From an uncultured Prevotellaceae bacterium (GTDB taxonomy: Bacteria > Bacteroidota > Bacteroidia > Bacteroidales > Bacteroidaceae): 64,000 bases of DNA. The position numbers and the translations under genes were made by a program. This document shows positions 1,189-21,310 of the stretch, one piece after another. A model generated the notes under the pieces. The model saw only the letters and a list, made by a program, of their open reading frames with translations, was not told the origin of the DNA and searched no databases. Location of the stretch: NCBI GenBank assembly GCA_902800435.1, contig CADCEQ010000008.1, forward strand, positions 18,053 to 82,052, in the 5' to 3' direction. How positions within the stretch are numbered: the first letter of the stretch is position 1; each line of letters opens with the position of its first letter.

Positions 1189-1195
1189 GGTACCT

Positions 1196-2986
1196 TTATT
1201 CTTCAAGGTTTTTCAAAGTGACAATGATAGGCATAGCAATACAGGAACGATTGCGGATGCGCTGTTCCATTAGATGGCCGTATGCGATAGAACAGGCATG
1301 TTCATAGTTCTTGCGGTCGCGGAATTCGATATCGATGTATAGGCCTCGTCTTAAAGACTGCTCTCCGCCTGCTCCCTGAACTGACGTCTTGATAACGATG
1401 CGGTGGAACTCATCCTTTCCGAATTCAGCCAGCAATTCCTTGCGGAGAAAAGCATCGATATCCATGCGGGTATAGAGCCGGTCGTTAGTTAAGGCATAGT
1501 AACGTAACTGCTCGTAGCGCTCATCGACGGAGGCTTTGTCAGCGCCACCCATAGCAGAAACAATGATTTTAACTTTCTGCTCTAAGGCTGGATGTTTACG
1601 GTTTTCCATAACGTCCCCTGCATAGGGCGCATTTCCTATTTTACCCATCGTTGTGATGTACGACACCTTAACTGACGTTGTAGTAGGATATTGGTTCATG
1701 TTCTTCATGACGTATGTGCCACTGTCAAACTTGAACTTCTGGTTCTGGCCTCCCACGCTTTTACCTAATCGGTTGATGGCCTCACGCAATTGGCGGAGAA
1801 CCTCGCCGTCCTTGATTCCGTTGTACTCTATGAAAGCGTAGTAATCATCAATGAAACGATTGTACAAACGACGCACGTCACGATAGAGGTCGCCGTTGTC
1901 ATAGCATTTAGCCTCGAAGTCACGTATCAGAATCTCGTCATTCGTCTTGTTGAAACCCTGTTTGTTCGATGCCGTGCTGGTCTCCAGTATACGCAGGAAG
2001 AAACTCTCGTCCTGTTTTTGCAGTTTGGCTATGGGTTGTGTCTGAGTCAGTGTGAGTGAACAGACATCAACATTGGTCACTGGAACTATATTGAATATCA
2101 CGCTACAATCGTCAGGAACGGTGTAGCCTTCTGGAAAGTCCAGGCGGAGCCAAATGGTAGACGGCTGGAAACGATCGAGTACTTCGCTTTCAAGCCACTG
2201 CTGAAACACTCGGGGGAAGGGGCGCGGCTTGAATCTGTCGCGGTCTTGTCTGTCATCGGTAATGTAGATGAGGGCTGCGTCGCCCATGTTCAACAGATTC
2301 TCTTTCCAGTTTTCTACAAAGGAGAAGAATTCACCTGATGACTGCTGGGCATCAAACGGCTCAACCATTTCAATGCTCTCCATCTCAAGCATGGTAGCAA
2401 AGTCTAATTCCTCGTTGTCAACTCCTGCATAGATATGCTCTGGCATAATGCCATTCGTTCCTTTGATAAGCATGGAAAGCCCTCGCAGGCAGTTGACTTC
2501 TGAGGCAGTTTTAATGCCTACCCACAACTGATTAGCACCATCCATGTTGACCTTGACGATTGTGTCGTCATCGTGCAGTTCATGATGGTTGAGCAGATAG
2601 AGGCCAGAATTTGGAATCAGTGAGGTGTTGAATATTGGAATGTATGTCAGTGGCTGCTTCAGCCCCTCGTGTTTGTAAGCAAACGAGGCGTCACCTGTTA
2701 TACTAAGAAGACCATTGTCACCACGGGCTTTCAGCATGGGATGAAGCAGACAGATGGCTGGCATAGCGTCAACCTTCTGACGTGGTATGAAGTCTGTGCA
2801 GAATCGTTCAACGAGACGCTGATTAACATCATCGACATAATCTAATACTTTCTGAATCTCACCAACCATTGCTACAAGCATCATCTTGGCGATGGGGTCC
2901 ATTTCATGAAAGTTGATGGGCTCTGCTGACAATTGTTGCAGAACTTCAACCGCCTCCTTAATCCTTTTTTCTAATTCTATGTCCAT
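1196..2986 (-). CDS. tssF: Type VI secretion baseplate protein TssF
   Basis: A 596-aa protein close to the usual TssF length of about 600. It opens with a helical segment and then the TssF-like 'DFIPRQKVDAMPAICLLHP', the point where other TssF proteins carry a 'PAxT/V-x-x-HP' motif. The middle holds 'LWLRLDFPEG'-type strands and the end reads 'RGLYIDIEFRDR'. TssF with TssG forms the baseplate wedge that docks the sheath. It sits 11 nt after tssE in the minus-strand operon tssG-tssK-tssE-tssF. The assignment rests on the family pattern, the size and the gene neighbours rather than on a catalytic motif. Confidence 0.82.
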   Translation of the reverse strand: MDIELEKRIKEAVEVLQQLSAEPINFHEMDPIAKMMLVAMVGEIQKVLDYVDDVNQRLVERFCTDFIPRQKVDAMPAICLLHPMLKARGDNGLLSITGDASFAYKHEGLKQPLTYIPIFNTSLIPNSGLYLLNHHELHDDDTIVKVNMDGANQLWVGIKTASEVNCLRGLSMLIKGTNGIMPEHIYAGVDNEELDFATMLEMESIEMVEPFDAQQSSGEFFSFVENWKENLLNMGDAALIYITDDRQDRDRFKPRPFPRVFQQWLESEVLDRFQPSTIWLRLDFPEGYTVPDDCSVIFNIVPVTNVDVCSLTLTQTQPIAKLQKQDESFFLRILETSTASNKQGFNKTNDEILIRDFEAKCYDNGDLYRDVRRLYNRFIDDYYAFIEYNGIKDGEVLRQLREAINRLGKSVGGQNQKFKFDSGTYVMKNMNQYPTTTSVKVSYITTMGKIGNAPYAGDVMENRKHPALEQKVKIIVSAMGGADKASVDERYEQLRYYALTNDRLYTRMDIDAFLRKELLAEFGKDEFHRIVIKTSVQGAGGEQSLRRGLYIDIEFRDRKNYEHACSIAYGHLMEQRIRNRSCIAMPIIVTLKNLEE

Positions 2987-2996
2987 TACGGTCTTT

Positions 2997-3491
2997 CTAT
3001 CTGTAACGTTTTACTGTGGGTTCCACTAAGAACACCACATTCTTACGGTATGGCTGGAGAGTCCCCAGCCCGTCGTCGAGCTGTCCTTCCACAACAACGT
3101 TTACCTCATACTTCGAAGCCATTTTATTCCTGTGCGATGATTTGTTGTTAGCAGTATTCAAGACTATTGATACGGCTATATTCTTCAGCATTGGCTCGTA
3201 GGTGGCAAGGCTTGTACGGATACTGTCCTCACACTCTTTCTTTGTGACCTCATTCTGTAAACCTTTTGCTATTCTTCCTAATTGGCTGTTATTGAACTCT
3301 CGGTAGTGTACATTGGAATACTCATGGTTCCAATATTCAAAGCCAAAGTCAGGGTCTGCTGCAAAACTGCCACGTGGTGTGAATACGACAAGTTCCACCA
3401 AGTTGTCAAGCATGGTGATATGGTCATTGATGTCGCGGAGAATAGATGCTCCTGAGTTATTAAATATAAGAGGTGTACTGATAAAACTCAT
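2997..3491 (-). CDS. tssE: Baseplate wedge protein TssE (gp25-like)
   Basis: 164 aa. The N-terminal half has the gp25/GPW layout: a helix with 'ILRDINDHITMLDNLVELVVFTPRGSF' feeding into 'DPDFGFEYW', then a conserved-looking helix 'CEDSIRTSLATYEPML' and C-terminal strands. In T4 and T6SS baseplates gp25/TssE nucleates sheath assembly. The classical EPR motif of gp25 appears here only as 'YEPML'. The start overlaps the tssK stop in an ATGA, which implies translational coupling. The lysine-rich 'NNKSSHRNKMASKYE' stretch is an unusual loop for the family. Confidence 0.8.
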   Translation of the reverse strand: MSFISTPLIFNNSGASILRDINDHITMLDNLVELVVFTPRGSFAADPDFGFEYWNHEYSNVHYREFNNSQLGRIAKGLQNEVTKKECEDSIRTSLATYEPMLKNIAVSIVLNTANNKSSHRNKMASKYEVNVVVEGQLDDGLGTLQPYRKNVVFLVEPTVKRYR

Positions 3492-4463: not shown

Positions 4464-5348
4464 TTATAGATTTGTATTATAGTTCAGGTAATTATAGAAT
4501 ATTTCATCACCAAGGCGAAGTGGAGGCTCGTCATGACTGATGTTAAAGTGGAGCACCTCATCTACGGCAAGGAAATAGTCCATGAGGAACAGACGTAATT
4601 CTTCGACCTCACGTACAAACTGCAAGAATTGTGGGCCACACTCGTCGTCCGACCAATAATAAATAGTGTAAGTCGTGATGGTATCGTCAAATATATTGCC
4701 GACATATCCGTCGCCAACCTCCATATCAACACTCTCCTGATAGCGCGGCTGTTCGTCGGTCATTGTGACCTCCTGACGGCAGATGTCGATAGCCAAGCCC
4801 TCCTCCATAAAGACTTTCCGCAGAAGGAGCGTCAACATCGTTTTATTTCCCCTGATGTTTCTACATTGGGGGAGGAATGGCAGTATCTGACGGATAAATC
4901 TGTTGGAGCGTTGCTCGTCAGTCAGCCCATCTCCAATAATCTGCTGCATGATAATGTCTTCAGTGGCATATTTCTCCAACCTTTGCCGTACCTCTGTTCG
5001 AAGCCAGATGAGCAGTGTATCGATAGGTGCGAAGAAGCGGTAGGCGTTCTCAATCTCCTCTTGTTGCTGGTCAAGCTGTTCCTCGAATCGTTCCTTCTCC
5101 TCGTATTTGGGCAAGTTGTCGAAACGGTCGATGGGGTGGAACATATATTCCGGTAGGGCATTGTAAAGGCTGTTGCGGCCAACTGTCAACAGAAAACTGT
5201 TGTCATCGAAAGGCGTCATCTCAATGATGTCCTGATAGGTGTTGCGCTTATGCAGACCTTTCAAGCAGACTTTGCATCTCCCTTTTGGGTAGTAAGAGAG
5301 CAGCAGTTCGGCATTGATGTCGCCCGGAAGCAGTTGTGGAGGTATCAT
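4464..5348 (-). CDS. tssG: Baseplate protein TssG-like
   Basis: About 294 aa from the ATG at 5348; an ATG at 5378 would add ten residues and overlap the E1 gene by 20 bp. The opening 'MIPPQLLPGDINAELLLSY' and the middle 'LRKVFMEEGLAIDI' (a TssG/gpI-like segment) plus the C-terminal 'VREVEELRLFLMDYFLA' and 'LRLGDEIF' are the clues. Position between E1 and tssK and before tssE-tssF completes the usual wedge set. TssG pairs with two TssF chains in the baseplate. The family call is by context and weak sequence pattern; a distant baseplate or chaperone role is the alternative. Confidence 0.62.
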   Translation of the reverse strand: MIPPQLLPGDINAELLLSYYPKGRCKVCLKGLHKRNTYQDIIEMTPFDDNSFLLTVGRNSLYNALPEYMFHPIDRFDNLPKYEEKERFEEQLDQQQEEIENAYRFFAPIDTLLIWLRTEVRQRLEKYATEDIIMQQIIGDGLTDEQRSNRFIRQILPFLPQCRNIRGNKTMLTLLLRKVFMEEGLAIDICRQEVTMTDEQPRYQESVDMEVGDGYVGNIFDDTITTYTIYYWSDDECGPQFLQFVREVEELRLFLMDYFLAVDEVLHFNISHDEPPLRLGDEIFYNYLNYNTNL

Positions 5349-5358
5349 GTCAAAGCAA

Positions 5359-6558
5359 TTATTCAAACATGCTGGCATCGCCAGTGAGTTCCAGATGAAC
5401 TACTCCCTTGTCGGTTGAGACTTCAATAACATCGAATGGCGGAATGCCAATCTGCTGGAGCGTCAGGTCTTGATAGGGGAAACGATCATCGATGTTCTCA
5501 AAGAAATGCTTGTGAATCAATGTGCGGTAACTAAGTTGGCGCAATTCCTTGTTCTCTTTGATATAACTATCCAGTTTTGACTCGGGAATCATGACCTTGA
5601 ACTCTTTCTCAGGACGATCGGACACGATGATATCAATAAACTTGTTGTTGCGCATGTTAATTTCCACCGTCTCTGTGCCCAACAGAGCCCTTAGCTTCTC
5701 CAGGATATCGCCTACTGTCATTGTCGCCGACAGATTCTGGCACTCTTTTACGTCATCCCACAACTCGTGGGCAGGGCATGTGTTCTTCCACGATGCAAAC
5801 CGGTAGATGCTGGTGGTATTGGTCATGCCTTCATAGCGAAGCATTTTCCCTTGCAAGGTTTTGAATGGAGCAGGCTCTTCTTCCGAGAGATGAACAATCT
5901 TCATGGCTTCCTGTACTTGCATAGCGCCAATAATAGATGCGCTGATAGGTGTTGTTGCCACGCGACCAGCATCACCCTGGTTGCGTACGACATCGGCACA
6001 ACCTGTGCGAAGCATGATGTGGTTAAATTCCTCGCGTGAAAGTCCACATTCATAACAACTTAGACCTGGCGTATAGACTTTTACAGCTCCAGTCAGGTTT
6101 TCGATGCTTCCGTCGATCCAGCTTTTCCCAGCACGCAGACTCAAGCGATTCAGTTGATAGCGGGCTATGCGGCTGTCAAGGCAGCCGATGACGACATCTG
6201 CTCTGCGGTATAGACCGAAACCCACTTCTGAGAATAAGTTTCCAACGATGGGTGTGACCTTAATCTGTGGGTTAATCTCCATTGCACGTTTGGCTACTAT
6301 CTCAGCCTTGTAGGCATGGTTGTAAGCATCCTCCTCACGGAACATAACCGAGCGCGTGAGATTGGAGATTTCAATTCGGTCAAAATCTACGACGTAGATA
6401 TGGCCTATGCCAAAAAGCGTTAGGTTCTTAACCACCTCATTGCCCAAAGCACCTGCACCAGCCACGAGGACATGAGCGTTTTTCACTTTGTCTTTCTTGA
6501 ACCATGAGAGGAGCGTATAGACGCCATCTCCCCATTCGTATTGCTGTTTGTTTTCCAT
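5359..6558 (-). CDS. E1-like ubiquitin-activating enzyme (ThiF/MoeB family) with C-terminal extension
   Basis: 399 aa. Residues about 25-225 form the ThiF fold: nucleotide loop GAGALG (34-39), the DFDRIEISNLTR stretch (58-69) with Mg/ATP-binding Asp, and 'GCLDSRIARYQLN' (125-137). Zinc ligands are visible as C168-x2-C171 and C261-x2-H264. C187 ('RTGCADVV') lies in the crossover loop where E1 enzymes place the thioester Cys. About 120 residues follow (280-399), longer than in ThiF or MoeB and possibly an E2-recruiting part (inference). The expected reaction is adenylation of the Ubl C-terminus and thioester transfer. It lies 3 nt after the RING/FHA membrane protein gene and just before tssG, so it joins the ubiquitin-like block to the baseplate genes. 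Confidence 0.88.
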   Translation of the reverse strand: MENKQQYEWGDGVYTLLSWFKKDKVKNAHVLVAGAGALGNEVVKNLTLFGIGHIYVVDFDRIEISNLTRSVMFREEDAYNHAYKAEIVAKRAMEINPQIKVTPIVGNLFSEVGFGLYRRADVVIGCLDSRIARYQLNRLSLRAGKSWIDGSIENLTGAVKVYTPGLSCYECGLSREEFNHIMLRTGCADVVRNQGDAGRVATTPISASIIGAMQVQEAMKIVHLSEEEPAPFKTLQGKMLRYEGMTNTTSIYRFASWKNTCPAHELWDDVKECQNLSATMTVGDILEKLRALLGTETVEINMRNNKFIDIIVSDRPEKEFKVMIPESKLDSYIKENKELRQLSYRTLIHKHFFENIDDRFPYQDLTLQQIGIPPFDVIEVSTDKGVVHLELTGDASMFE

Positions 6559-6561
6559 AAA

Positions 6562-8964
6562 TTAAGACTCTACGTATTCGAATACTGTGTCGCCTACCTT
6601 GAATGTATCGCTGTTTGAGAGGACGACAGGCTTGTTGGCGGGCAACTCAGTCCTGACGTTATAGATGACATTGGCTGCCAGCGGTTTCAGCATGGGCAGC
6701 GACTTGGCATGGTCGATGTATAGCTGTACGTGCTGCTTGGCCACCTTATTGCTCTTCTCCCAGTTCATCTGGATTTCGCACTCGCCGGTCATACCGATGT
6801 GTACGACGTTACCGCCACCTGTTGCATTCATCCATTTGTGAATGGGTATGCGTTGTCCTGCTTTAACACCATTCTTGATGACCAAGAAGTAGCGTTCAGC
6901 CAGCATACGCACTGTGACGAGCGATGCTCCCAGACCGCCACCATAAATGATGAAGTCGAGCAGCATGTTCAGCCAACCAGCACTGCTGCTGAGAGCAGAA
7001 CCTACATAGAGAACGATGAAGCCGATGATAGCCGAACATAAACCTCCCAACAGTGCACTCTTCATAGGAATGGACGACTTGAAGGTAAGACTCAGAGCCG
7101 TACAGACGGAGAAAAGAATGTAGGCGGGCAGTGAGCAGTACCAGGGAATATAGGTCGTATTGACCATAGACAGCAGGAGACAGAAAATGATGCCTCCAAT
7201 GGCAAATGCCAGCATACCAATAACTCCTGACAACAATGACAGTCCGATAATCTTCAGCCAGACCTTGGCATCTTTTTTACGGTATTCATCGTTGTAACGG
7301 AAAGCTAATGAAAGGAAGAATCCCAGTAGCAGACCTACAGTGAGGAAAGCCGATACTTTACCTGCACAGTCATTCATGAGGTTAGCCGCCTGTTCTTTAT
7401 TATAGAAGAAGGTATTGGCAATGGCAGAACCGATGGAAGGGAACAGTCCGCGCCCAGTTACTTCAAAGATTATCCAGCTGACTAGTCCGGCAATGATTCC
7501 AGAGATGGTCTGGTAACTGTCGCGAAGCGATGTTTTGGTGAACAGTTCTTTCCAATCTACGTGATCCTGTATACCTTCTTTGCAGTTCTGACCATATTCT
7601 ACGCACTTGTAACCGTTCTGCTGCCAGCAGCCCACATGGATGATATGTTTACATCTGGTTACAACTTTCTGTCCTGGCAATATGTCTTGACGGCAGTAGT
7701 GGCAGATGCGCCGCTGCACGTTCTCTTCTGGGACGTAGCTCTTGTAGTATTTAGATTCAAACCGTTTCGAATTGATAAACGGTATCAATACTTTTGAGAC
7801 GAGGAAGAACAGCAGGAATGTAAGGAGTGCTATTAGCAGCGCCACCAAAAACTTGACAGCTGCACTGCCAGCACTTTCTTCCTTGATAGGCCATGGGGTC
7901 TCGGCGGTACCGATGGAGTACTCGCCTGTTCCGGCCTCCATTCCTTTCCATTCGGCGACGTATGTCACCTTACCTGTATATGCCTTATCGGGTGTAGCCT
8001 GATAGGTAAAGGCAAAGTCATACATGGCATCCTTCACCGCCTGCTGGAAATTGCTTAGCACATTACTAAGGTCGGCAGACGGCTTATAAGAACCCTGACG
8101 GTCAGCAAGCACTTTTCCAGTACTGTCACGTGGGGCAGATACACCTTTCAGGGTTAGTTCCACATTCTCGTCGACGCCATCACCTGTATAATAGAAGGCA
8201 TAAACTTTTGGAACCATGTTTTCTGTATTCGCCTGATAATCGGTCACTTCGACAAACGAGATGGCTTCGTCGCTGGCTCGCTTGTTTCCGTCAATGAAAA
8301 CAAAAAGGATATTCTTATCCTTGGCCTTCTGGGCTCTTCTTGTGATGGTCTCGTTTCTTGTATAACCAGCTTTTGTCGTAACCGAGCCTTCCAGCTCAGC
8401 CTCCTTGCTGCTGAACTCTACTAACTTTGAGTATAATGCGCCGTAGAAGAATTTATTCTCCGACTGTGCTTTGAACTTAGGCTCAAAATCGGGAAGGTTT
8501 TTCTTCGTAACCAACTGGCTGGCCGTCACCTCATCACCAAAGAACGAGAGGAACACGCAACTGTCAGGTGCGCTCTCAACCAACTGACCGAAAGCCTTGA
8601 AGATCTGACCTTTCCCCTCTTCGGGAATGCTAAGGTCAACGAGCACGGAGAACGTGTAGTCACTCGGAATGCGCTGACCTGAACTCAATGAGGTAATCTT
8701 GCGGCGGTCTGGAGAAATAAGAACACCTTCTTCGTTTACGACCAGATACTTGTCAAGATCGTTTACGGTAATTTCAGTGTTAGGCTTCCCTTCGTTGTCG
8801 AGCACCTTCAAAAAGAGCGTAATGCTGTCCTTGCCAAGTCCGTACTCATATTGCTTGTCACAGAATTGAATCTGTGAGACATCTTGTGCTCCTGCCTGGA
8901 GCATACACGCCAGCATAACGCAGGCTGTCCATATACGTCTCATTATCTGCTTCTTTTTGTCCAT
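6562..8964 (-). CDS. Membrane protein with vWA-like, RING-H2-like, multi-TM and FHA-like parts
   Basis: 800 aa. Signal peptide 1-26; a vWA-like exported domain about 100-345 whose metal site is degenerate (D110-L-S-I-P instead of DxSxS); a membrane helix about 371-393; then a cysteine/histidine cluster C421, C424, C438, H440, H443, C446, C454, C461, spaced as a RING-H2 finger except for a wider last pair (x6). About six hydrophobic segments follow (485-690). The last 100 residues look like FHA ('VVHIGMTGECEIQM', 'KVAKQHVQLYI'). Predicted topology puts vWA outside and RING and FHA in the cytoplasm. It could be the E3 of the cassette and part of the secretion platform (inference). ATG at 8943 forms TAATG with the preceding stop and is an alternative start. 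Confidence 0.8.
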   Translation of the reverse strand: MDKKKQIMRRIWTACVMLACMLQAGAQDVSQIQFCDKQYEYGLGKDSITLFLKVLDNEGKPNTEITVNDLDKYLVVNEEGVLISPDRRKITSLSSGQRIPSDYTFSVLVDLSIPEEGKGQIFKAFGQLVESAPDSCVFLSFFGDEVTASQLVTKKNLPDFEPKFKAQSENKFFYGALYSKLVEFSSKEAELEGSVTTKAGYTRNETITRRAQKAKDKNILFVFIDGNKRASDEAISFVEVTDYQANTENMVPKVYAFYYTGDGVDENVELTLKGVSAPRDSTGKVLADRQGSYKPSADLSNVLSNFQQAVKDAMYDFAFTYQATPDKAYTGKVTYVAEWKGMEAGTGEYSIGTAETPWPIKEESAGSAAVKFLVALLIALLTFLLFFLVSKVLIPFINSKRFESKYYKSYVPEENVQRRICHYCRQDILPGQKVVTRCKHIIHVGCWQQNGYKCVEYGQNCKEGIQDHVDWKELFTKTSLRDSYQTISGIIAGLVSWIIFEVTGRGLFPSIGSAIANTFFYNKEQAANLMNDCAGKVSAFLTVGLLLGFFLSLAFRYNDEYRKKDAKVWLKIIGLSLLSGVIGMLAFAIGGIIFCLLLSMVNTTYIPWYCSLPAYILFSVCTALSLTFKSSIPMKSALLGGLCSAIIGFIVLYVGSALSSSAGWLNMLLDFIIYGGGLGASLVTVRMLAERYFLVIKNGVKAGQRIPIHKWMNATGGGNVVHIGMTGECEIQMNWEKSNKVAKQHVQLYIDHAKSLPMLKPLAANVIYNVRTELPANKPVVLSNSDTFKVGDTVFEYVES

Positions 8965-10724
8965 TGCTTTAAGTTTTCAAGTTTATGTTCTCCGTAGTAT
9001 TTAATGTCTGTACATAAGTCGTTGTCGATGACGGGAATTGACGTCAGCAGACCATCAGCCGGAGTGTAAACCAACACGAAGTGAATCTGGCTGAGCCTAT
9101 CTTCAACAAATTTCCTAACACTCGGAATGCTACAGTGCTGGGCAACAACGAACGAGCCAATCATGGGGAGGGTGGCCTGTTGTTCGTTCTCTACTAGTTG
9201 TTCAGCCAGATAGACTATCTTAGTGCCTTGCTGAACAGCCTTACCGTGTATGTGTCCTACGATACCGTTGCTATGGCCAGTCAGTGCCATGCAGATGTCA
9301 ACCACCATGTTGTTGCTTAGTTCTATACCATTGCAAACGTTGGAGTGTGATGAAGCATTAGCCAATGTGCTGAAATAGTCGTCACTGTTAAAGGTGGTCT
9401 CTGCATCCATGCTCTTTTGTTTCGATGAACCTGCGAGACTTTCTTTAGCCCAATCGTACCATTCCTCTAAAGAGTAAAGCTGCTTCAGATCGTTCTTAGT
9501 GTTGATGGTGGTGTCGCGGTGGAATGTAAAGATACCAAGTTCCATGCCTGGAGTCAACGTATCCACAACGATTGCCGTCAGGAAGTTGGGGTGGGTTGGA
9601 TGCTTCAGCTGCATCTGTACGCTACTGTCAGAATTGCTGAAGAATATGCCCAGTCCTGGGTGCGAGTGAACCCAACAAGTCAAGTCGTATTGGAGGTTGG
9701 TTTCGCGGCGCAGTTTACGCAGTTCTTCTAGTACCTTCAATTTAATCTTGCCGCCGAAGTTCAGTTCGTACTCTTCAAGCAGTGCATCATCGCCTGGCAG
9801 TACAATCTGTTCCAACGATACATAGTACTCGTTACTTTCAGCGTCGTGTACCCAGCGCCCTAACACCATGCAACCATACTCACGAGCCTGTTCTGGCGCA
9901 TTTTGGTCGTTGACATACATGTTATATAATTCTTCGATGCATGTGTTTTTGATGTAGATGCGCCGCACCGCCGAATCATAACAGAAGTCCTCCACGTCAA
10001 CCTTCATGTAGTCAGGATTGTCAATGACGCCTTCAAGACTCTGCTTCTTGAGGATAGTAGCCGTCTTGCGACGTACAACAATGCCACTTTCTGCATTATT
10101 GTTGCTATTGGTGTGGGGCGAACGATAGTTTGCGACGGGGACGGCCTCTTTCTTCTTTCCTGACCTGCTAATGGCATAAATCAAGAGAAGGAGCAGGAGT
10201 ATTCCGATACAAGAGCCGATGATGATTAAGGTCTGTTTGTCTAAACCGAGGAATGGTTTTTCCTCCTTGGCATTCAACTCTCTTTCTAAGAGGTTAAGGT
10301 TTGTTTCGCACGGCCCTAATTTGTCGTTAAGCATTGCTTGCATCTGTTCAACGCATGTTTGACGGTCTTCAAACTCCTGATTTCCATACTGATCAAGGAA
10401 GTCTTCAATCATCATGGTCTTTTTACCTTGATAGCGTTCTATCGAGTCGCGTTGGTTGGCGATGAAATAGCGCAGGTCGTGCATTGTGATATATGCCTCC
10501 TTATCTGTCGAGTTCTTCAGACAGTTGATGTGGTTGTCAATATCCTTATTGAGAGAGGCCATCTCTGCTTCTTTTAAATAAGGTATGGTCTCCACATATT
10601 CTCTGAAGCTACTGACAACCTTTGCCGACTGCAGAGGTTCAGTATTTGTACCCTTAACAGCTTGTGCCTGAATGCCCATAAAGAGCAGCATGGCAACAAT
10701 CAAATTGTTTTTTAGTTTATTCAT
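8943..10724 (-). CDS. Membrane-anchored JAMM/JAB-domain isopeptidase
   Basis: 593 aa. A signal sequence (1-22), an exported helical segment rich in charged residues (30-160), one membrane helix (about 166-186, 'IIIGSCIGILLLLLLIYAI'), then a cytoplasmic part. The JAB domain spans about 250-400 with a perfect zinc motif HxH-x7-S-x2-D: H353, H355, S363, D366. An upstream Glu in 'YYVSLEQIVLP' can serve as the catalytic acid. JAMM enzymes remove or process ubiquitin-like proteins. The C-terminal 130 residues ('GIVGHIHGKAVQ', 'IGSFVVAQHCSIPSV') might be a second, inactive copy of the fold; I am not sure. The gene is bracketed by the other ubiquitin-like genes, so its substrate should be this operon's Ubl. 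Confidence 0.88.
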   Translation of the reverse strand: MNKLKNNLIVAMLLFMGIQAQAVKGTNTEPLQSAKVVSSFREYVETIPYLKEAEMASLNKDIDNHINCLKNSTDKEAYITMHDLRYFIANQRDSIERYQGKKTMMIEDFLDQYGNQEFEDRQTCVEQMQAMLNDKLGPCETNLNLLERELNAKEEKPFLGLDKQTLIIIGSCIGILLLLLLIYAISRSGKKKEAVPVANYRSPHTNSNNNAESGIVVRRKTATILKKQSLEGVIDNPDYMKVDVEDFCYDSAVRRIYIKNTCIEELYNMYVNDQNAPEQAREYGCMVLGRWVHDAESNEYYVSLEQIVLPGDDALLEEYELNFGGKIKLKVLEELRKLRRETNLQYDLTCWVHSHPGLGIFFSNSDSSVQMQLKHPTHPNFLTAIVVDTLTPGMELGIFTFHRDTTINTKNDLKQLYSLEEWYDWAKESLAGSSKQKSMDAETTFNSDDYFSTLANASSHSNVCNGIELSNNMVVDICMALTGHSNGIVGHIHGKAVQQGTKIVYLAEQLVENEQQATLPMIGSFVVAQHCSIPSVRKFVEDRLSQIHFVLVYTPADGLLTSIPVIDNDLCTDIKYYGEHKLENLKQWTKRSR

Positions 10725-10730
10725 TGCGTA

Positions 10731-12065
10731 TCAAATTGAAACGTTTTTATTCGGATTCTGCCCGGGCTTGCGCCATCTCTTATACTTGGCAGGTATCTGG
10801 TCGTTGAGTGATGGCCTTTTGGGCTCTGCTTTTGGAGTCTCCTTAGCTTCGGGCTTCTTTTTCATTTCCTGAAGTCGTTGTTTGGCTGCCTCACCTTCTT
10901 TGCTTAGCTTGCGCTGCAGTTTGCCAGTTACGGCTTGCTCAGCTTGTTTCATCCCAGGAACGTTGCCAAAGGGGTTGGCCGCATTAACGCCATTCATTCC
11001 TCCACCAGCCATCTTTGTGATGCCCTCCATCATTTGTCTTTGGGCTTTCTGCAACTGGTTGTTCTTAATGGTCTGAATGACTTGCTTTCCACCGAAGATT
11101 AGAAGAGCCAGACCGCCGAGACCACCGACGAGCCACATAATCTCCTTTTTGTCTTTAGCTGCCTGCAATGCAGAAGCTGCTGACAGAGAGTCGGTCAGGG
11201 CTTTGGCCTCTTGAGCCTTTTGGGCGGCTTGAGCAGCTGCTGCGTTCTGGGCCGTTTCGGCCTGCGCTTCCAGCTCCTGTTTTTTATTGTCGTAAGCATC
11301 AAGCGTCTGGGCTATCTGCTTACTGACTTCATCGTCGGTCACCTTGAAGCGTAGTTCGCGCAGCATCGAAGCCTCATGTGTCAGTTCTTCAGAGAAGGGA
11401 AGTTTCTTAGCTTTTTCAAGCATCGACATCACAGAACTGATGCGGATGGCAGCTTCATCTGCAGGTGAGAGCCCTTCATCGGTCAGTTCCTCTGTCGTAA
11501 TAGTTTCTGAGCCAACATCATTCCCATCACTGCCGTTTCCAACACCACCAGCTGCAGAACGAGTCTTATTCGCTTTCGGTTTTAATTGAAGTGTTCCACA
11601 CTGGCCAAACACCTTGTAATGGCGTTTGCCTTCATAGTGAGCCAGATAGAGTGGGATAGAGAGCTGGGCGTCTTCGTCCTTTACAGTAAACTGTAAGACA
11701 GGATTCTCTTGAAGCAGATAATAACCGTCAGAAGAGGGCGTATAGGTTATGTTGGACGGGACCATAAAGGCACTCGGCGTCTGACCGTCGAACTTCAAAT
11801 CCCGGTAATTACCCGTTCTGTCAAAGATAACGACGGCAATTTCGTCCAGTTTTTTGTATTTGTCCTGGGTCCGCTGACCTAACTTTTTCAGAATGTTGTT
11901 AAACTTCACCGTAACCTGGCCCCCGTCTCGCGTCATGTTGTAATTCAGGATGACCCTATCGCCGTTAGTAGAATAGAGCGTGTCTTTGACGTCCTTAGCC
12001 AAAGTCAAGGTACTGCTAACGAAGACAGCAGCCAGACATGCCGTAAAACGTAGTCTTTTTGTCAT
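10731..12065 (-). CDS. Exported, membrane-anchored protein of unknown function (paralogous N-domain with next gene upstream)
   Basis: 444 aa, not recognised as a named family. Signal peptide (1-23), an exported beta-rich domain (25-165), a serine/glycine linker, helical segments (195-290, Ala/Gln-rich at the end), a membrane helix near 305-325 ('IMWLVGGLGGLALLIFGG') and a basic, proline-rich cytoplasmic tail. Its 'IPLYLAHYEGKRHYKVFGQ' aligns with 'MPIYIAKFKGKKKLILLEK' in the protein encoded just upstream, so the two share a domain. They overlap by ATGA, implying coupled synthesis. They could form a periplasmic pair attached to the JAMM and RING proteins, filling the place of the missing T6SS membrane complex (inference only). 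Confidence 0.72.
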   Translation of the reverse strand: MTKRLRFTACLAAVFVSSTLTLAKDVKDTLYSTNGDRVILNYNMTRDGGQVTVKFNNILKKLGQRTQDKYKKLDEIAVVIFDRTGNYRDLKFDGQTPSAFMVPSNITYTPSSDGYYLLQENPVLQFTVKDEDAQLSIPLYLAHYEGKRHYKVFGQCGTLQLKPKANKTRSAAGGVGNGSDGNDVGSETITTEELTDEGLSPADEAAIRISSVMSMLEKAKKLPFSEELTHEASMLRELRFKVTDDEVSKQIAQTLDAYDNKKQELEAQAETAQNAAAAQAAQKAQEAKALTDSLSAASALQAAKDKKEIMWLVGGLGGLALLIFGGKQVIQTIKNNQLQKAQRQMMEGITKMAGGGMNGVNAANPFGNVPGMKQAEQAVTGKLQRKLSKEGEAAKQRLQEMKKKPEAKETPKAEPKRPSLNDQIPAKYKRWRKPGQNPNKNVSI

Positions 12066-13111
12066 AGATTCTTAATGCGGTTGTAGCGTTCTATGATTTT
12101 GGTCTTATAGTCGCCACCTTTTTTCCAGGCTGAGGCATGCTTCGAGCAAGTTGGGTCTGTACAGCACTGATAGAGTGCATTTACTTGACTCATAACGCTG
12201 GCCTTGGCTTCTTTGCGGTTGTTACTGCTATAAATCTTCTTGTAGAAGTCGTCCAACTTGTGGTAAATCTGCTGGAGTGAGAGCGAACAGTAGCTGCAAG
12301 TATGCCCTTCTCTGACTCGCCCGTGTCTACCGCAGTCGCCTTCCCTGAAGTTGGCGTTGTCAAGGCGTTCCTTTAGGGCGTTGTAACGCTTATAACCGCC
12401 ATCGCCAGCCGTCCAGTTGTGGGCGGCAATAGCATTGTCTATACGTTCTTTGAGCGCGTCAATCCTCTTTTCATAAGTTTCTTTCTGCTTGCTTACTGAT
12501 GTCTTGTGTTTCGGATTGGTGCAGATAACAACTCTTTTTAGCTCGTTTTCCAACTTTTCACAGTCGGTGCTTAGGGATAGGTACTCCTTGCTGGGCTTTA
12601 GTTCTGCATCAATGTCAAGCTCTATGACCTGTTTTTCAAGCAGTATCAACTTTTTCTTGCCTTTGAATTTGGCAATGTAGATAGGCATACGACACTTGGC
12701 TCCCTCCTCATTGCTTACAGTAACGTTGGGAAGCGACTGTTTGTCGGAAGGCTCTACAAGCATCACAGCGTTCATCGGATTATTATATGGGTCGATGACC
12801 CTTTTGTTCTTTGTTCCGCCAAACTTCTTGTCGAAGCGGATGGAGGTACGAAGCTTCTTGATGCTTTTCTCAGAATAAGCCTGATCGAAGAGTATCAAGA
12901 CCTTCGATTCATCCAAATTCTCCAATTCAATGGCAACTTCAGCCGAACTGTCGTCACCAGTGTTCTTAAGTGTAGCAAAAATATTGCAGTAGCCTAAGCT
13001 GACAGTCTCCTGCGAGTGGTCATTACTCAGACTTATCTTTTTCTGCTCATCGGCATTGATATTGATGCATACTAAGCAGAAGCCGAGGGTTAGTAACAGA
13101 ATCTTCCTCAT
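12062..13111 (-). CDS. Exported Cys/His-rich protein of unknown function
   Basis: 349 aa with a signal peptide (1-20, 'LLLTLGFCLVCININA'). The N-terminal 170 residues share the domain seen in the neighbouring 444-aa protein. The second half is helical and holds closely spaced Cys and His: 'CGRHGRVREGHTCSYC' and 'CCTDPTCSKHA'. These look like a metal-binding or disulfide-bonded module. The gene follows the E2-like gene by 11 nt. A periplasmic location is expected from the signal, which is odd for a protein next to E2 and Ubl genes. I do not recognise the family. Confidence 0.7.
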   Translation of the reverse strand: MRKILLLTLGFCLVCININADEQKKISLSNDHSQETVSLGYCNIFATLKNTGDDSSAEVAIELENLDESKVLILFDQAYSEKSIKKLRTSIRFDKKFGGTKNKRVIDPYNNPMNAVMLVEPSDKQSLPNVTVSNEEGAKCRMPIYIAKFKGKKKLILLEKQVIELDIDAELKPSKEYLSLSTDCEKLENELKRVVICTNPKHKTSVSKQKETYEKRIDALKERIDNAIAAHNWTAGDGGYKRYNALKERLDNANFREGDCGRHGRVREGHTCSYCSLSLQQIYHKLDDFYKKIYSSNNRKEAKASVMSQVNALYQCCTDPTCSKHASAWKKGGDYKTKIIERYNRIKNL

Positions 13112-13122
13112 AGTATTGTTTC

Positions 13123-13788
13123 TTAGATGCTCAGTGATATTTTCTTCTTAGGCTTTTCTTCCTTATTGCCGTCAGTGGGCGGAGTAGGGGAAACAGGTTT
13201 CTCATCAGTCTGGCTATCCTGCGCAAATCTTACCCAACCGTTAGGCTCGCCTTCTTCGCGTACCCACTCTGCCACCCCTTGATCCTCGGGGTAGGGGTAG
13301 GTGTTCTGGGCGTGGTACATCTGATATTTTAGGTAACGCTCGACGCGAAGAACCAAATCTTTAATGGAAGCCAGAACACCCATCTCTTTGATAGTCAAAC
13401 AGACATGGCCTTTGAACGACCCACTACTGCGGATGTTGGGATGCCAGATGTCGGTCAGGAAAGTAAAGACGGGATTGCCGTCGGCTGAAGGGTAGTTGTT
13501 TGGCAGCACGATGCTCATCTTGTGCAGATTGCCGAAGATGGGCTTACGCGGGGGCTGTGTGTCTTCTACACCGACAATCGACTTGCAGCGGTACCATATC
13601 TCAAACTCCGTGGGTAGTCCCATGGCATTCTTCCGACGGATGATATACGAAAGTGACGGCTTGAAAGGATTAGGACTGTTCTCCTTGCGCTTGCTGCACA
13701 CGGCGTCCAGCTCCTTCCATTCCTGGAACAGACGGGCGTCGCGGCCCTTCAATTCCTTCAAATTAAAGTTGTTTATTGCTGGATTCAT
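13123..13788 (-). CDS. E2-like ubiquitin-conjugating (UBC-fold) protein
   Basis: 221 aa. The UBC core runs from about 15 to 165. Key pieces in order: 'MSIVLPNNYPSADGNPVF' (the PxxYP strand-loop), 'FLTDIWHPNI' with H116-P117-N118, the triad that stabilises the oxyanion in eukaryotic E2s, and 'GHVCLTI' with the presumed catalytic C130. HPN and Cys are 12 residues apart, about four more than in UbcH5-type enzymes. A C-terminal disordered tail (185-221) ends in basic 'KPKKKISLSI'. It should accept Ubl from the E1-like protein as a thioester. It lies 23 nt downstream of the Ubl gene. The intact motif and the Cys argue against a dead UEV-type protein. Confidence 0.9.
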   Translation of the reverse strand: MNPAINNFNLKELKGRDARLFQEWKELDAVCSKRKENSPNPFKPSLSYIIRRKNAMGLPTEFEIWYRCKSIVGVEDTQPPRKPIFGNLHKMSIVLPNNYPSADGNPVFTFLTDIWHPNIRSSGSFKGHVCLTIKEMGVLASIKDLVLRVERYLKYQMYHAQNTYPYPEDQGVAEWVREEGEPNGWVRFAQDSQTDEKPVSPTPPTDGNKEEKPKKKISLSI

Positions 13789-13811
13789 AATTATCTCTTT
13801 TCAATTGTCAA

Positions 13812-14138
13812 TTAGCCTGCTATAGGCACTGAAATGAGGTGCAGATGATCCATGGGCTGGATGTCATAGTCAACGAGAGCCATCTCGCGACCGTTCTCGT
13901 CCTCAAACTCCAGGATCACAGGCTCCTCGTCGTCATCCATCAGTTTGCCAAGCAGATACTGGATGGGGTTGCCCCCATTGTCCATCTTGGGCAGTTCAAA
14001 CACTTGGACAATACTGTTAATCTGGTCGCGTATTGTCTTGTTCGGGTCAGTCACTTTGACTTCAATCTCGTCATACGATGTACCGTCGATGGTCAGCATG
14101 ACGATAAACTCTTCTTGATAGAATTCCTGGTCTGTCAT
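13812..14138 (-). CDS. Ubiquitin-like beta-grasp protein
   Basis: 108 aa from the ATG at 14138; a longer frame starting at 14219 lies in repeat DNA and is unlikely. The pattern is that of a beta-grasp: strand 'EFIVMLTIDG', strand 'DEIEVKVTD', helix 'KTIRDQINSIVQVFEL', strand 'IQYLLGKL', an acidic insert ('DDDEEP') and a last strand 'DHLHLISVPIAG'. The mature C-terminus ends directly in a single Gly, so it would need no trimming before activation. A single final glycine rather than GG is known in some bacterial Ubl families. It is first in the ubiquitin-like block and is followed at once by E2. The identification as the conjugated modifier is inference from fold pattern plus the adjacent E1, E2 and JAMM. 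Confidence 0.8.
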   Translation of the reverse strand: MTDQEFYQEEFIVMLTIDGTSYDEIEVKVTDPNKTIRDQINSIVQVFELPKMDNGGNPIQYLLGKLMDDDEEPVILEFEDENGREMALVDYDIQPMDHLHLISVPIAG

Positions 14139-14186
14139 AATCGTAATATTTGTTTTTGTTTTTAATATGTTTATATCTTTAAAAAT

Positions 14187-14476
14187 CCTGCACTTCCTGC
14201 ACTGACCACTGACAGTCAAGAGGTTACAGCATTAAATTATTTGGAAATCCTGCACTGGATTCTGCACTCATTCCTGCACTGCCAAAACCCGCCGCCTTTT
14301 GCTCGTAAACCGCCGCTTTTTGTCAAAAACCCGCCGCCTTTTGCCTGAAATCCCTCTAAAATTGCTGCACTTCATAGGTCCCTTCAGATTCTCAAGTGCA
14401 GGTTTCAGTGCAGGAAAACAAGCCGTCTCCGACGTATAACCACCTGATTTCCAGTAGTCAGTGCAGGTAGTGCAGG
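14187..14476. repeat. MITE-like noncoding element with about 25-bp terminal inverted repeats
   Basis: The left end (14187-14211, starting CCTGCACTTCCTGCACTGAC) and the right end (14452-14476, reverse complement starting CCTGCACTACCTGCACTGAC) match at 23 of 25 positions. Inside, the octamer CCTGCACT or a one-base variant recurs on the left (14249, 14261, 14273, 14364) and its complement AGTGCAGG on the right (14395, 14407). The element separates the PAAR-like gene from the Ubl gene in a minus-strand operon, so it would be transcribed and could fold into a long stem. I see no credible gene in it. Confidence 0.7.
14289..14351. repeat. Three 21-bp iterations of a CCGCCGC-TTTT box
   Basis: The core CCGCCGC followed by a T run occurs at 14289, 14310 and 14331, a period of exactly 21 bp. 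Spacer bases between cores differ. It lies inside the larger inverted-repeat element. Two helical turns per unit would place all copies on one face of DNA. Confidence 0.75.
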
Positions 14477-14509
14477 TTTCCTTACAGTTTATAACCATAT
14501 ATCTACTTG

Positions 14510-14595
14510 TTTGGCGCCGCTATTTGGGGCTTTTGGTGCCGCTATTCGGGTCGTTTGGCGCCGCTATTCGTCTTGTTTAGAGCCCCCATTCGTGA
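14510..14595. repeat. Four 22-bp iterations of a GGCGCCGCTATTCG box
   Basis: Units begin at 14513, 14535, 14557 and (diverged, AGAGCCCCCATTCG) 14579, each preceded by TTT, a period of exactly 22 bp. The stretch between the inverted-repeat element and the 3' end of the PAAR-like gene (14477-14641) holds nothing else that I can support. Confidence 0.75.
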
Positions 14596-14641
14596 TTTGT
14601 CTTCTGTCGGCTAAAACTGACTGGTCATACTTTGCCAAGGA

Positions 14642-17032
14642 CTAATAATCTAATGTGAAGTCATAGCCTATCCATGACGTATCGACAGGTGGAGTCTCCG
14701 GTTTCTCTTGTTCCTCAGGCTTAACCTCCTTTGCCCAGTCATTGATACCATCGGCATCAGGCAGGACCTCGCTGGTTGCATTATCGCTAACATTTTGGAT
14801 GAGGTCAGACTGGGCATCTTGTTCTTTTCCTAACTTCATCGTCGCGTTATCAGGTCTTAAACTGTCAGCTTCTGCTACAGCGTCGTCATGTTTCTTTTGT
14901 TTGTCTTTTTGCCGTTTATCTTCTTTGTTGTAGGCATCATCAGCTTCTTTCGCCTTAGCCTTGGCCTTGTTGTGTTCGTCCATTTTCTTGTCATATTGAC
15001 GCTTTTCAGACAGGTAAGCATCTTCGTCAGACTTTACCTTATCTTGCAGATCCTTATATTCCTGCTGTTTCTTTTCCGCATTTTCAACAGACCTCTTTGC
15101 CTGATTGTATTCTGGTGTTGCAACAGCCAGTTCGTTTTGACCTTCTTTAAACAATCTGTCCTTCTCGGCAATTCTAGCTTTCTCTGCCTCAAATTCCTTC
15201 CACGCCTTGATATCAGCTTCGTTATTGGCCATGCTGATGTCGTTGGTGTACTTCTCTGTGGTAGCTTGGTACCTTGCTTCCAGTTCTTTAAGATGCTGTC
15301 TCTCCTCAGGAGTCACCCTGTTGGTTTCCATTTTGGCTTTTGCATCATCAACAGCTTTCTTTTTGGCTTTTAAGGTGTTATAATCGGGTTCGGCTGGCTT
15401 CGGGGTGTTCTCTAATTTCTGTTTCGAGGCATCGCTTTGAGCCTTCTTGTTGTCCATTTCTGTCCTTGACGGTTCCGGATGGTCGTTCAGGTTTTTGTGG
15501 GCATTGTTTTTCTCTCTTTCAAGTTTTGAAAGATGCTCTTTTTCTTTTTGGCTAACAGGAGGATTCTTTGCAATCTTATCATCAGCATCTTTCCATTTTC
15601 TATAGGCCTCACGTGCTTCTTTACGCTTTTCTACTGAAGGTACGTCTGCTTCGCTCCTGTATTTTGCTTTCCAGTTGTTACTGTTGGCAGAACCACTACC
15701 ACGGGTTGAACCTGTTCCAGTCATATTGCTGCTGTGTGTTTCAGGAACATCACCGCCATGTGGGTGGTTGCTGCTCACTGAAATGGTACCTCCATGAGGA
15801 GTGTTTGGTGTAGCTAAAGTTCCATCGGCATTGAGATGGCGGTTTTCGTCAGCTGCTCTTCCTGCTTTATCTAAATTGTCGTGGTACTGATTCCTGACTG
15901 AAGGCGGCATGTCGTCGCCCAAAGACCTTGCCGATCTATATACGTCAGCAATTTCAATTCTTTTAATTCCCTTGTTGAATAAATCAGAAGTAAAATCGGC
16001 AATTTTCTTTATGCCTCTGTTAATGGCAATATTATCGCCTCCTAATCCTACTGCTCCAGATACACCGCTGAATAGAGCCCCAATAATATCACCGCTCATC
16101 AGATTGATAGAACCGTCGAGTAAATCACAGATTGATGCTGCTTTGTTTAATACTTCGAGTGATTTTGCAAAGCCACCAGCAACCGAGAATACGGCACCTG
16201 CCATGTTGACTATATTCTGTATGCCGGCTAATCCGCCCGGTCCCAAAAACATTGCTTTGCCCCAGCTGGCATCAAGTCCTTGTCCAGGGTGTACTATTTT
16301 AAGTTCTCCTGGCCACCAGCAGCTAATTGTACTGCTTTGTGTTAGAGCTAATAATCCATTAGTCTTGACTTTAATCTGAGTGGGTTTCCAAAAGGGCTGC
16401 ACATAAGAAAAGAGGGGTACAGAACCTACGCATAGCCATGGCGTGAAAGTAAACACGCCGCCCTTAGCTGCCGTTGCCAAAGCCGTTGCCCAAATGACGT
16501 AAGGATTAAACGGGTTTTGACAAATAGTGAAGAGATTATAAGGAAATACGTTTGTGAATGCAAAATGGTCGTTAATGGTTAGCATTTGCCCTTTAATGCC
16601 AAGACTCCCTTCGACGTTTGCTTGTCTTGGCATAGGAGTTGCTTGTATTTTGCAGAAAGTCATTCCAAACGGACATTGAACAAGGCAGTTTTCAACACAT
16701 ATGGGGTCTTTAGTGAAGTTATGAAAAGATAGCCGAGCTGGTTTCCCGGTACCTTCACCACCACTAGTAGATCCTTCTTCTACTTCAAAAAAGGTATCCT
16801 TTAAAGCACCCTCAATCGGTTTCTTTAAATTGTCTTCTAAAAAATGATTGACTGTGTTAATACCACCACCGACTATTTGCTGGAATGCGCCAGGCTCTTT
16901 TCCAGTTTCTTCATCCTGGTTGAGGCCAAAGTATTCGTCTTGTGTAGGCGCATCGTCCTGAAGTTGAGAGTCAACATATTTCTCCCAACCATCGAAATAG
17001 GGGCTGTTAGCGGTATTGTCGATTTCGCCCAT
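14642..17032 (-). CDS. PAAR-like (DUF4280-type) spike-tip protein with long coiled-coil C-terminus; putative effector
   Basis: 796 aa. Residues about 105-250 look like a DUF4280/PAAR-like domain: 'ICVENCLVQCPFGMTFCKI', 'TINDHFAFTNVFPYNLFTICQNPFNPY', 'WLCVGSVPLFSY'. Such proteins cap VgrG. A glycine/alanine-rich hydrophobic stretch follows (about 260-345), which could insert in membranes. From about 470 to 750 the chain is highly charged and predicted coiled coil, ending 'WIGYDFTLDY'. I recognise no nuclease, deaminase or other toxin motif. It lies 22 nt downstream of vgrG, as expected for the tip protein. No small immunity-like gene is next to it; the following DNA is the repeat region. Lower G+C in this gene by eye than in tssC/tssH may point to separate acquisition. 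Confidence 0.75.
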   Translation of the reverse strand: MGEIDNTANSPYFDGWEKYVDSQLQDDAPTQDEYFGLNQDEETGKEPGAFQQIVGGGINTVNHFLEDNLKKPIEGALKDTFFEVEEGSTSGGEGTGKPARLSFHNFTKDPICVENCLVQCPFGMTFCKIQATPMPRQANVEGSLGIKGQMLTINDHFAFTNVFPYNLFTICQNPFNPYVIWATALATAAKGGVFTFTPWLCVGSVPLFSYVQPFWKPTQIKVKTNGLLALTQSSTISCWWPGELKIVHPGQGLDASWGKAMFLGPGGLAGIQNIVNMAGAVFSVAGGFAKSLEVLNKAASICDLLDGSINLMSGDIIGALFSGVSGAVGLGGDNIAINRGIKKIADFTSDLFNKGIKRIEIADVYRSARSLGDDMPPSVRNQYHDNLDKAGRAADENRHLNADGTLATPNTPHGGTISVSSNHPHGGDVPETHSSNMTGTGSTRGSGSANSNNWKAKYRSEADVPSVEKRKEAREAYRKWKDADDKIAKNPPVSQKEKEHLSKLEREKNNAHKNLNDHPEPSRTEMDNKKAQSDASKQKLENTPKPAEPDYNTLKAKKKAVDDAKAKMETNRVTPEERQHLKELEARYQATTEKYTNDISMANNEADIKAWKEFEAEKARIAEKDRLFKEGQNELAVATPEYNQAKRSVENAEKKQQEYKDLQDKVKSDEDAYLSEKRQYDKKMDEHNKAKAKAKEADDAYNKEDKRQKDKQKKHDDAVAEADSLRPDNATMKLGKEQDAQSDLIQNVSDNATSEVLPDADGINDWAKEVKPEEQEKPETPPVDTSWIGYDFTLDY

Positions 17033-20902: not shown

Positions 20903-21310
20903 TTAGTTGTCAATTGTCCAGCGGTTGTTGTGAACAGCGTTGCCGATAGCAATCTCCTTGGCAGAGATGGTGAACTCCTCGAACTGCTGTACCTCGTTCT
21001 TGTTGTCATAGGTCTCGGCATATTCCACCATGTAGCCCTCCTTAAAGTCGAGGTGCTTCATTTCGCCACCCTGGCGGTTGGGCCAGGAAATGGTGCCGCT
21101 CTTCGACATGTAGGTGTCGCACATCCATTCGAGCAGGTCGGTGTTGCCGTCATCGTTTGACTTCACCTTGAAGTGAATCTTACCGCCACGTGTTGTACCA
21201 GTGGGCTGACCTTCTACGTCAGTCTGCTGGTTCAGTTCATAACGAACATACATAATCTCGCGCTCAGCGATGCCATCGGCATTGAGCGTAACAACTCTTT
21301 GTGCTGCCAT
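20903..21310 (-). CDS. tssD: Tube protein Hcp (TssD)
   Basis: 135 aa, the usual Hcp size in Bacteroidetes. Shows the Hcp strands 'REIMYVRYELNQQTD' and 'TTRGGKIHFKVKS', the exposed loop 'DLLEWMCDTYMSKSG', and the end 'NAVHNNRWTIDN'. Hcp rings stack to form the inner tube. It follows tssC by 53 nt. The terminator-like hairpin just after it probably separates highly expressed tube mRNA from the rest. Confidence 0.9.
   Translation of the reverse strand: MAAQRVVTLNADGIAEREIMYVRYELNQQTDVEGQPTGTTRGGKIHFKVKSNDDGNTDLLEWMCDTYMSKSGTISWPNRQGGEMKHLDFKEGYMVEYAETYDNKNEVQQFEEFTISAKEIAIGNAVHNNRWTIDN

Follow-up and report, generated by a model that had tools for sequence, protein, structure and literature searches.

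Ubiquitin-like conjugation genes within a type VI secretion operon of Bacteroidales lacking TssN and TssR: a possible licence for contractile injection

The stretch analysed here (the window: 64,000 nucleotides of contig CADCEQ010000008.1 from an uncultured Prevotellaceae bacterium) carries on its minus strand a type VI secretion system (T6SS) operon enclosing a block of seven genes (5359-14138) for a ubiquitin-like protein (Ubl), its activating (E1) and conjugating (E2) enzymes, a JAMM isopeptidase, a membrane protein with a RING-like domain and two further proteins, u349 and u444. We read the block as a putatively complete Ubl conjugation and deconjugation pathway built into a T6SS lineage without TssN and TssR, and consider it an even bet that this is so and that the tag licenses assembly or firing of the machine. 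The block is kept at the same position across many species, which suggests that Ubl tagging is used to run the T6SS. Known bacterial ubiquitin-like pathways serve mostly in cofactor synthesis or phage defence; one built into a secretion apparatus would put ubiquitin-like chemistry to a new use. The hosts are gut and rumen Bacteroidales.

The operon runs in transcription from TssH, TssB, TssC, two TssD, VgrG and a DUF4280 PAAR-like protein through the block to TssG-, TssK-, TssE- and TssF-like proteins and a glucosaminidase-LysM enzyme (Table 1). Within the block the order is Ubl-E2-u349-u444-JAMM-RING protein-E1, and from Ubl through TssG the intergenic spacing is -22 to +23 bases, an arrangement as in one transcript. 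Promoter and terminator scans of positions 5000-15000 stayed near shuffled expectation (14 against 11.6 and 14 against 9.5, respectively) and were set aside. The TssBCDEFGHIK core of T6SSiii, the Bacteroides fragilis type, appears to be present, with TssK and TssE matched below cut-off. TssF and TssG had no T6SS family match in Pfam or NCBIfam and TssB none in Pfam (NCBIfam was not run for it); all three are named by position and by profile matches to T6SS loci elsewhere, that of TssB being to the gene beside TssC. An earlier note, made from the sequence alone, had proposed a Gly-terminated Ubl, an E2-like protein bearing HPN and Cys, a JAMM protein and a ThiF-type E1, tightly packed on one strand with TssH/B/C/D/VgrG/PAAR genes upstream and TssG/K/E/F downstream. 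Genes, packing and flanks were all borne out, and the catalytic residues are invariant in the 19-27 rows aligned for each protein.

The E1 matches Pfam ThiF with an E value of 1.6e-46 and, by profile, UBA7, UBA6, UBA1, MoeB, SAE2 and NAE (best values of 5e-37 to 3e-28 for each); its C187, present in 22/22 aligned rows, is probably the catalytic cysteine. The E2 lies over the curated Pfam cut-off for UQ_con (8e-7) and matches solved E2s by profile (4e-10), with HPN and Cys130 unchanged in 27/27 rows. For the UBC fold that the note expected of it, the support is these sequence and profile matches, and the beta-grasp fold expected of the Ubl was recovered in an AlphaFold model (pLDDT confidence 85.6). 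The Ubl has no Pfam family match; ubiquitin-like folds make up most of the 50 listed Foldseek matches to its model, among them FAT10 and the ubiquitin of the archaeon C. subterraneum (E about 1e-4 to 2e-3), and further beta-grasp proteins in that list include plexin and two ESX-5 (EccD-type) entries. Profile matches of the Ubl to polyubiquitin chains, resting on about 23 C-terminal positions, were discarded. In all 19 aligned rows the Ubl core terminates in Gly, and in several relatives a short tail follows (L002 AGG-SKK, L054 AG-YLVV, L055 AG-A, L061 AGG-REDH, G273 AG-KI, G574 AG-ASSY, G589 PGG-K; L and G denote loci and genomes), which the JAMM protein could trim. The alignments (A1-A5) each hold 18-26 selected relatives out of 61 loci. 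In an E1 tree of 39 of the 58 E1 rows plus the window, with several long branches, a single clade of T6SS E1s was neither shown nor rejected (approximately unbiased test, p 0.505). Two loci (L044 and L048) have a second, divergent Ubl-like gene without a Gly terminus upstream of the Ubl, and L053 also has a second one.

The JAMM protein scores 0.032 against Pfam Prok-JAB and 7.9e-9 by profile against Rpn11, and E282, H353xH355, S363 and D366 are invariant in 21/21 aligned rows. The 800-residue RING protein was modelled with a pLDDT of 83.8; Foldseek finds a VWA domain (6fpy, 5e-7) and an FHA domain (6hc1, 8e-6), the latter also by profile (1.8e-6). RING is the weakest call: Pfam gives 0.045, below cut-off, and the profile search against the Protein Data Bank 0.042, and a homologue from the type b loci described below scores better (Prok-RING_1, 1.3e-4), still below cut-off. 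C438, C454 and C461 are nevertheless invariant in 21/21 rows, with the Cys/His residues kept in most. This is the protein that the note had proposed to be RING-H2-like and membrane-bound. No family matched u349 or u444 over cut-off. Topology and signal peptides were read off sequence and model, with no dedicated predictor. In the RING genes of G006 and G007 the search reports one stop codon within the matched frame.

A search of the protein collection gave 520 relatives of the E2, of which the top 120 were listed, and genome contigs yielded 61 E2 loci. In 51 of these (L001-L051), each from the genome of a different species, the block is conserved, far beyond chance; Xylanibacter muris PMUR and Barnesiella sp. 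An22 are among the carriers. The Ubl gene is present in 50/51, the exception, L038, having scarcely any DNA upstream of its E2. Relatives with at least 9 kb downstream have the right block order in 44/44, with u349, JAMM, RING and E1 in all 44, u444 in 43 and TssG in 42. One of the two TssG misses, L048, is a contig that stops at E1 (the genome resumes with TssG in L106), and the other, L042, has no T6SS alongside. Upstream, VgrG occurs in 37/40 relatives with at least 6 kb of sequence and TssC or Hcp in 29/38 with 9.9 kb. The chance insertion in one strain that the note had named as its refutation is ruled out by the 61 loci and the order kept in 44/44. The Ubl is the most conserved operon protein among those measured: its median identity to the window protein is 91.7% (n=50), against 86.5% for TssC (n=17) and 84.5% for TssH (n=4), these medians being drawn from loci that differ from gene to gene. 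The PAAR-like cargo protein has the lowest identity, 22-25% in the two loci matching over 60% of its length.

Co-occurrence with T6SS genes, which the note had proposed to map, was followed in genome samples. A family sample of 251 genomes was centred on G014, chosen because it carries the locus. TssC occurs in 21 of these genomes, TssN over cut-off in 9 and the E2 in 8, G014 counted; all eight are TssC-positive. TssC scores fall into three groups, with nine at 737-759 bits, nine at 419-441 and four at 338-347. TssN is found in 9/9 genomes of the top group and, over cut-off, in 0/12 with only divergent TssC, and the E2 is present in the genomes of 4/9 middle-score and 4/4 low-score TssC loci. 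One genome, G247, has a standard and a low-score TssC on separate contigs, with a separate standard T6SS that includes TssN. Genome searches for T6SS genes and the RING protein covered 24 of the 61 E2 loci; among G001-G022, TssC is present in 21/22 (the miss is G016) and TssN over cut-off in 0/22. Weak, unrelated-looking TssN matches in G005, G006, G007 and G009 (21-25 bits, frames of 691-735 amino acids) were set aside because similar ones occur in G120 and G246, both without TssC. TssR was found in 0/27 TssN-less genomes against 4/4 controls. None of the 20 window proteins matched TssN, TssO, TssP or TssQ, the last three not having been searched by genome. The T6SS of this lineage thus seems to be devoid of TssN and, where tested, of TssR, unlike the standard Bacteroidota T6SS.

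The TssN-less loci have three layouts. Type a is the arrangement of the window. In type b (G247, G030, G058, G245) the order is E1-TssG-TssK-TssE-TssF-Ubl-E2-two genes-RING protein; in G030 it is spread over two contigs and TssE was not recognised. The link between block and T6SS thus appears to survive rearrangement in four genomes. Type c comprises three loci (G037, G191, G219) with these T6SS genes and no block; of them G219, the one tested by family search, has Tsi6-like and M23 peptidase genes at the block position. In a tree of 38 sufficiently long TssC rows plus the window, types a, b and c and L053 are split from the TssN-type rows by a branch with 100/99 support, and c joins a (97/95); L053 and G024 sit on long branches and their placements are uncertain. 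Since type c groups with type a, loss of the block in c would be the simplest history. In the assemblies of two more genomes (G065 and G122) neither E2 nor RING protein was found, but the contigs with their TssC are short, 5.7 and 11.1 kb. At L066-L068, L071 and L072 a T6SS is present but neither TssN nor the Ubl block is, and in G219 a number of FHA, Ser/Thr kinase and PP2C genes lie around the T6SS genes. In L042, L120 and L096 (G016) the situation is reversed, with a Ubl block but no adjacent T6SS genes or no TssC in the assembly, and FHA-, kinase- and PP2C-like genes upstream; such blocks may reflect decay or independent use. Near PAAR and E1, type b loci encode a 244-residue protein (L073:14357-15091, L079:17229-17963), the L073 copy of which matches ribosome recycling factor (PF01765, 1.7e-9).

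More distant genomes carry free modules of the form E1-Ubl-E2-...-JAMM-RING. In nine such genomes (G023, G024, G273, G470, G574, G589, G613, G614, G615) TssC or the sheath family PF04984, which also marks phages, was found anywhere in 8/9, and in 4/9 a sheath gene shares the contig with the module at a distance of less than 50 kb (14-46 kb); several other modules are on short contigs. In G024, 15 kb separate the RING gene from TssC, and TssN is on that contig too; in G574 the E2 is 14 kb from TssC, with RHS nearby. The sheath surroundings were read in two genomes, G470 and G589, where a contractile sheath match lies 23 and 46 kb, respectively, from the E2 (the G470 match falls just below cut-off); tube- and spike-like genes were recognised by eye, and toxin-like and PAAR-like genes lie between, identified as eCIS_core and PAAR in G470, the one genome where they were put to a family search. 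Across a class-wide sample of 345 genomes the E2 was present in 5 and TssC over cut-off in 17, both together in G014, again the centre, and in G574. The earlier note had missed the TssN- and TssR-less lineage, its sister lineage without the block and these related modules near extracellular contractile injection systems (eCIS).

Downstream of the block, relatives have glucosaminidase, then kinase-like, WG and PP2C-like genes; in the window the kinase-like and PP2C-like genes would fall past the edge. Among 16 type a downstream regions, phmmer matches to the L081 kinase (Pkinase, 1.6e-42) and the L071 PP2C place kinase-like genes in 15/16 and PP2C-like genes in 11/16, with glucosaminidase in 15/16; L102 is the miss for both glucosaminidase and kinase-like genes. 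The L096 region (G016) was also read and left out of the 16 because it has no T6SS.

A mechanism can be proposed from these parts. The E1 would activate the C-terminal Gly of the Ubl and hand it to Cys130 of the E2; the membrane RING protein may recruit the charged E2 to the inner membrane; and the JAMM protein would both trim longer Ubl precursors and take the tag off. Most likely the tag goes onto a component of the baseplate, tail or envelope where the machine docks, and would there license assembly or firing, the downstream kinase and phosphatase genes and the FHA domain of the RING protein forming a probable gate. Between control of assembly and marking of tube, spike or cargo proteins, the choice offered by the note, the data lean to control at the envelope, because the ligase-like and JAMM proteins have transmembrane-like segments, a kinase-like gene is present in 15/16 regions and the RING protein bears the FHA domain. 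Our wider proposal is more tentative and, in our judgement, rather less probable than not to hold in full: Ubl conjugation would be a licence for contractile injection across Bacteroidota, the module being the envelope platform of the TssN-less T6SS and related modules serving standard T6SSiii and eCIS, so that, if this is true, eukaryote-like ubiquitin chemistry would determine where or when contractile tails are assembled or discharged.

Several observations weigh against the main reading. The RING match is weak, and its ligands are degraded in 3/21 rows, where the first Cys pair is gone. The FHA domain keeps G724 and N769, seemingly without the phosphate-binding Arg usual in the motif, and its reading as a phosphothreonine binder is therefore unsure. 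No JAMM protein was recognised in the DNA of the four type b loci (no genome-wide search was made), and no kinase in L102 or in L108, by the T6SS of L053's genome. In type c the T6SS genes stand alone with the block absent, and in G016 the block occurs with neither u444 nor TssC, so that block and T6SS do not strictly require each other. In the class-wide sample 3/5 E2 genomes (G273, G470, G589) have no TssC, and two of these modules lie by eCIS.

Part of the same evidence could be read differently. The membrane proteins of the block (VWA-RING-FHA, JAMM, u444, u349) might themselves form an envelope anchor replacing TssNQOPR, regulated by Ubl conjugation. The distribution of TssN (0/22 and 0/12 against 9/9 in standard systems) and TssR (0/27 against 4/4 controls) speaks for such an anchor, as does the presence of several envelope-like proteins, one with a VWA domain, as TssR also has (PMC10781749). 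Type c, however, has neither TssN and TssR nor the block, and must manage without either or use another anchor; G024 combines the module with a TssN-type T6SS on one contig; and none of the 50 listed Foldseek matches for the RING protein is TssN- or EccD-like. Simple replacement of the membrane complex is kept as a rival and no more, because in type c both are missing and a single genome combines the module with TssN; we judge the anchor reading unlikely, though still a candidate to be taken seriously. That a short TssK might point to a different anchor was considered and rejected: the window protein has 323 residues and those of type c 328-330, but those of the type a loci L045, L046 and L051 have 410-415. 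Alternatively, the Ubl might be attached to tube, spike or cargo proteins as a mark or for loading, the conjugate being delivered. The block does come after a variable PAAR-like cargo gene, in the window with a small variable stretch between; distant modules lie near RHS (G574) or eCIS_core toxin and PAAR genes (G470), and the tails past AG or PG in some Ubls look trimmable by JAMM. The ligase-like and JAMM proteins, however, look membrane-bound and adjoin baseplate genes, and the Ubl is near-constant (median 91.7%) while the cargo varies freely (22-25% for the PAAR-like protein), which makes delivery of a conjugate improbable in our view.

Far less credit is due to an antiphage cassette of the Bil or CBASS kind parked in the T6SS operon. 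Known bacterial Ubl-E1-E2-JAMM cassettes do serve phage defence (PMC11354881), but among the seven block proteins the E1 alone matches PADLOC models (best 1.3e-13), the position in the T6SS operon is fixed in 42/44 relatives and the order in 44/44, and the link is found again after rearrangement. A sulfur-carrier or cofactor pathway instead of protein conjugation would suit the ThiF/MoeB fold of the E1 and is scarcely credible beside JAMM and RING-like proteins and the HPN and Cys of the E2, with 0/7 block proteins matching a thiamine or molybdopterin family over cut-off.

Compared with known systems, the locus shares TssC (PF17541), TssD (PF17642), TssH, TssK, TssE and VgrG with T6SSiii and differs in the absence of TssN (0/22) and TssR (0/27), in its separate TssC clade and in carrying a Ubl pathway. 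According to PMC10781749, each of the 443 T6SSiii detected in 1253 complete genomes has the membrane complex or part of it; our lineage would be a T6SS without the membrane complex there reported for all Bacteroidota T6SSs. A putative T6SS is mentioned for Prevotella stercorea in PMC4714493. Predicted bacterial operons likewise combine E1, E2, Ubl and JAB (PMC1779556); in the text available to us they are placed in mobile elements, plasmids and uncharacterised operons and not by a contractile injection system, and the Bacteroides Ubl-JAB-E1-E2 type among them has an E2 without the classical His, whereas the window E2 has HPN. Unlike these predicted operons, the window has a RING protein that carries VWA and FHA domains. 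A 2011 extension of that set reportedly includes a membrane-associated prokaryotic RING.

The Bil and CBASS antiphage systems and Citrobacter BubCD use the same E1-E2-JAMM chemistry and differ in that the window block is embedded in a T6SS. The E1 profile does match BubCD, at 7e-13, far more weakly than eukaryotic E1s (5e-37), and the curated PADLOC defence models gave no match for E2, Ubl, JAMM, RING, u349 or u444. PRTRC families stayed below cut-off (PRTRC_ThiF 20.9 of 144.75 bits, PRTRC_E 15.5 of 37.95; the Ubl was not included). With the PpkA-PppA-Fha threonine phosphorylation pathway of T6SSs, as presented in PMC3953482 and PMC5995506, the lineage shares Ser/Thr-kinase-like and PP2C-like genes, seen by the T6SS of relatives, and a predicted FHA domain, here fused instead to the membrane RING protein of a Ubl pathway. 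Among the papers listed by a literature search, most subscription journals lying outside it, none dealt by title or abstract start with Ubl conjugation in contractile injection systems, the T6SS included. The locus offers a compact, testable system in named strains for asking what ubiquitin did before eukaryotes.

Table 1. Features of the T6SS operon, with window coordinates and the basis of each call
Feature	Coordinates	Strand	Basis
E1-like activating enzyme, ThiF/MoeB fold with C-terminal extension, 399 amino acids (aa)	5359..6558	-	Pfam ThiF, profile, Cys187
Membrane E3-like protein, 800 aa: N-terminal hydrophobic segment, VWA, transmembrane segment (TM), RING-like treble clef, multi-TM bundle, FHA	6562..8964	-	AlphaFold, Foldseek, profiles
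JAMM isopeptidase-like protein, 593 aa, with a single hydrophobic stretch taken as TM	8943..10724	-	Profile against Rpn11, JAMM motif
u444: signal peptide-like start, hydrophobic segment, lysine-rich tail	10731..12065	-	No family over cut-off
u349: signal peptide-like start, Cys-rich C-terminus	12062..13111	-	No family over cut-off
E2 conjugating enzyme, 221 aa, HPN116-118 and Cys130	13123..13788	-	UQ_con, profile, alignment
Ubl, 108 aa, C-terminal PIAG, ATG at 14138	13812..14138	-	Alignment, beta-grasp model
Small variable open reading frame between cargo gene and block	14268..14498	-	Matched in 2/61 relatives
DUF4280 PAAR-like spike-tip protein, variable C-terminus, probable cargo	14642..17032	-	PF14107 3.6e-10
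VgrG/TssI spike	17055..19163	-	Phage_GPD 1.3e-23, Phage_base_V 4.9e-23
Hcp/TssD with long N-terminal coiled coil	19199..20818	-	TssD 2e-28
Hcp/TssD	20903..21310	-	TssD 1e-31
TssC sheath	21364..22746	-	PF17541 1.5e-129; tree
TssB sheath	22809..23264	-	Position and profile link
TssH (ClpV) ATPase	23307..25601	-	AAA_2 1.6e-57; position
TssG-like baseplate protein	4464..5378	-	Position; no family match
TssK baseplate protein, 323 aa	3488..4459	-	TIGR03353 9.4e-8, below cut-off
TssE baseplate protein	2997..3491	-	GPW_gp25 0.00095, below cut-off
TssF-like baseplate protein	1196..2986	-	Position and profile links; no T6SS family match
Glucosaminidase-LysM cell-wall enzyme	178..1206	-	Glucosaminidase 2.3e-36

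In the longer of the two TssD proteins (19199-20818) Hcp is joined to a lysine-rich coiled coil of about 400 residues, a possible substrate or carrier. Downstream of the free Ubl module of L054 lies a homologue of the SrfB virulence factor (L054:11382-13910; PF07520, 1e-180). The operon is headed by a NusG/UpxY-like antiterminator gene (25638-26189), and the same kind of gene is found upstream of TssH in L022, L025 and L070.

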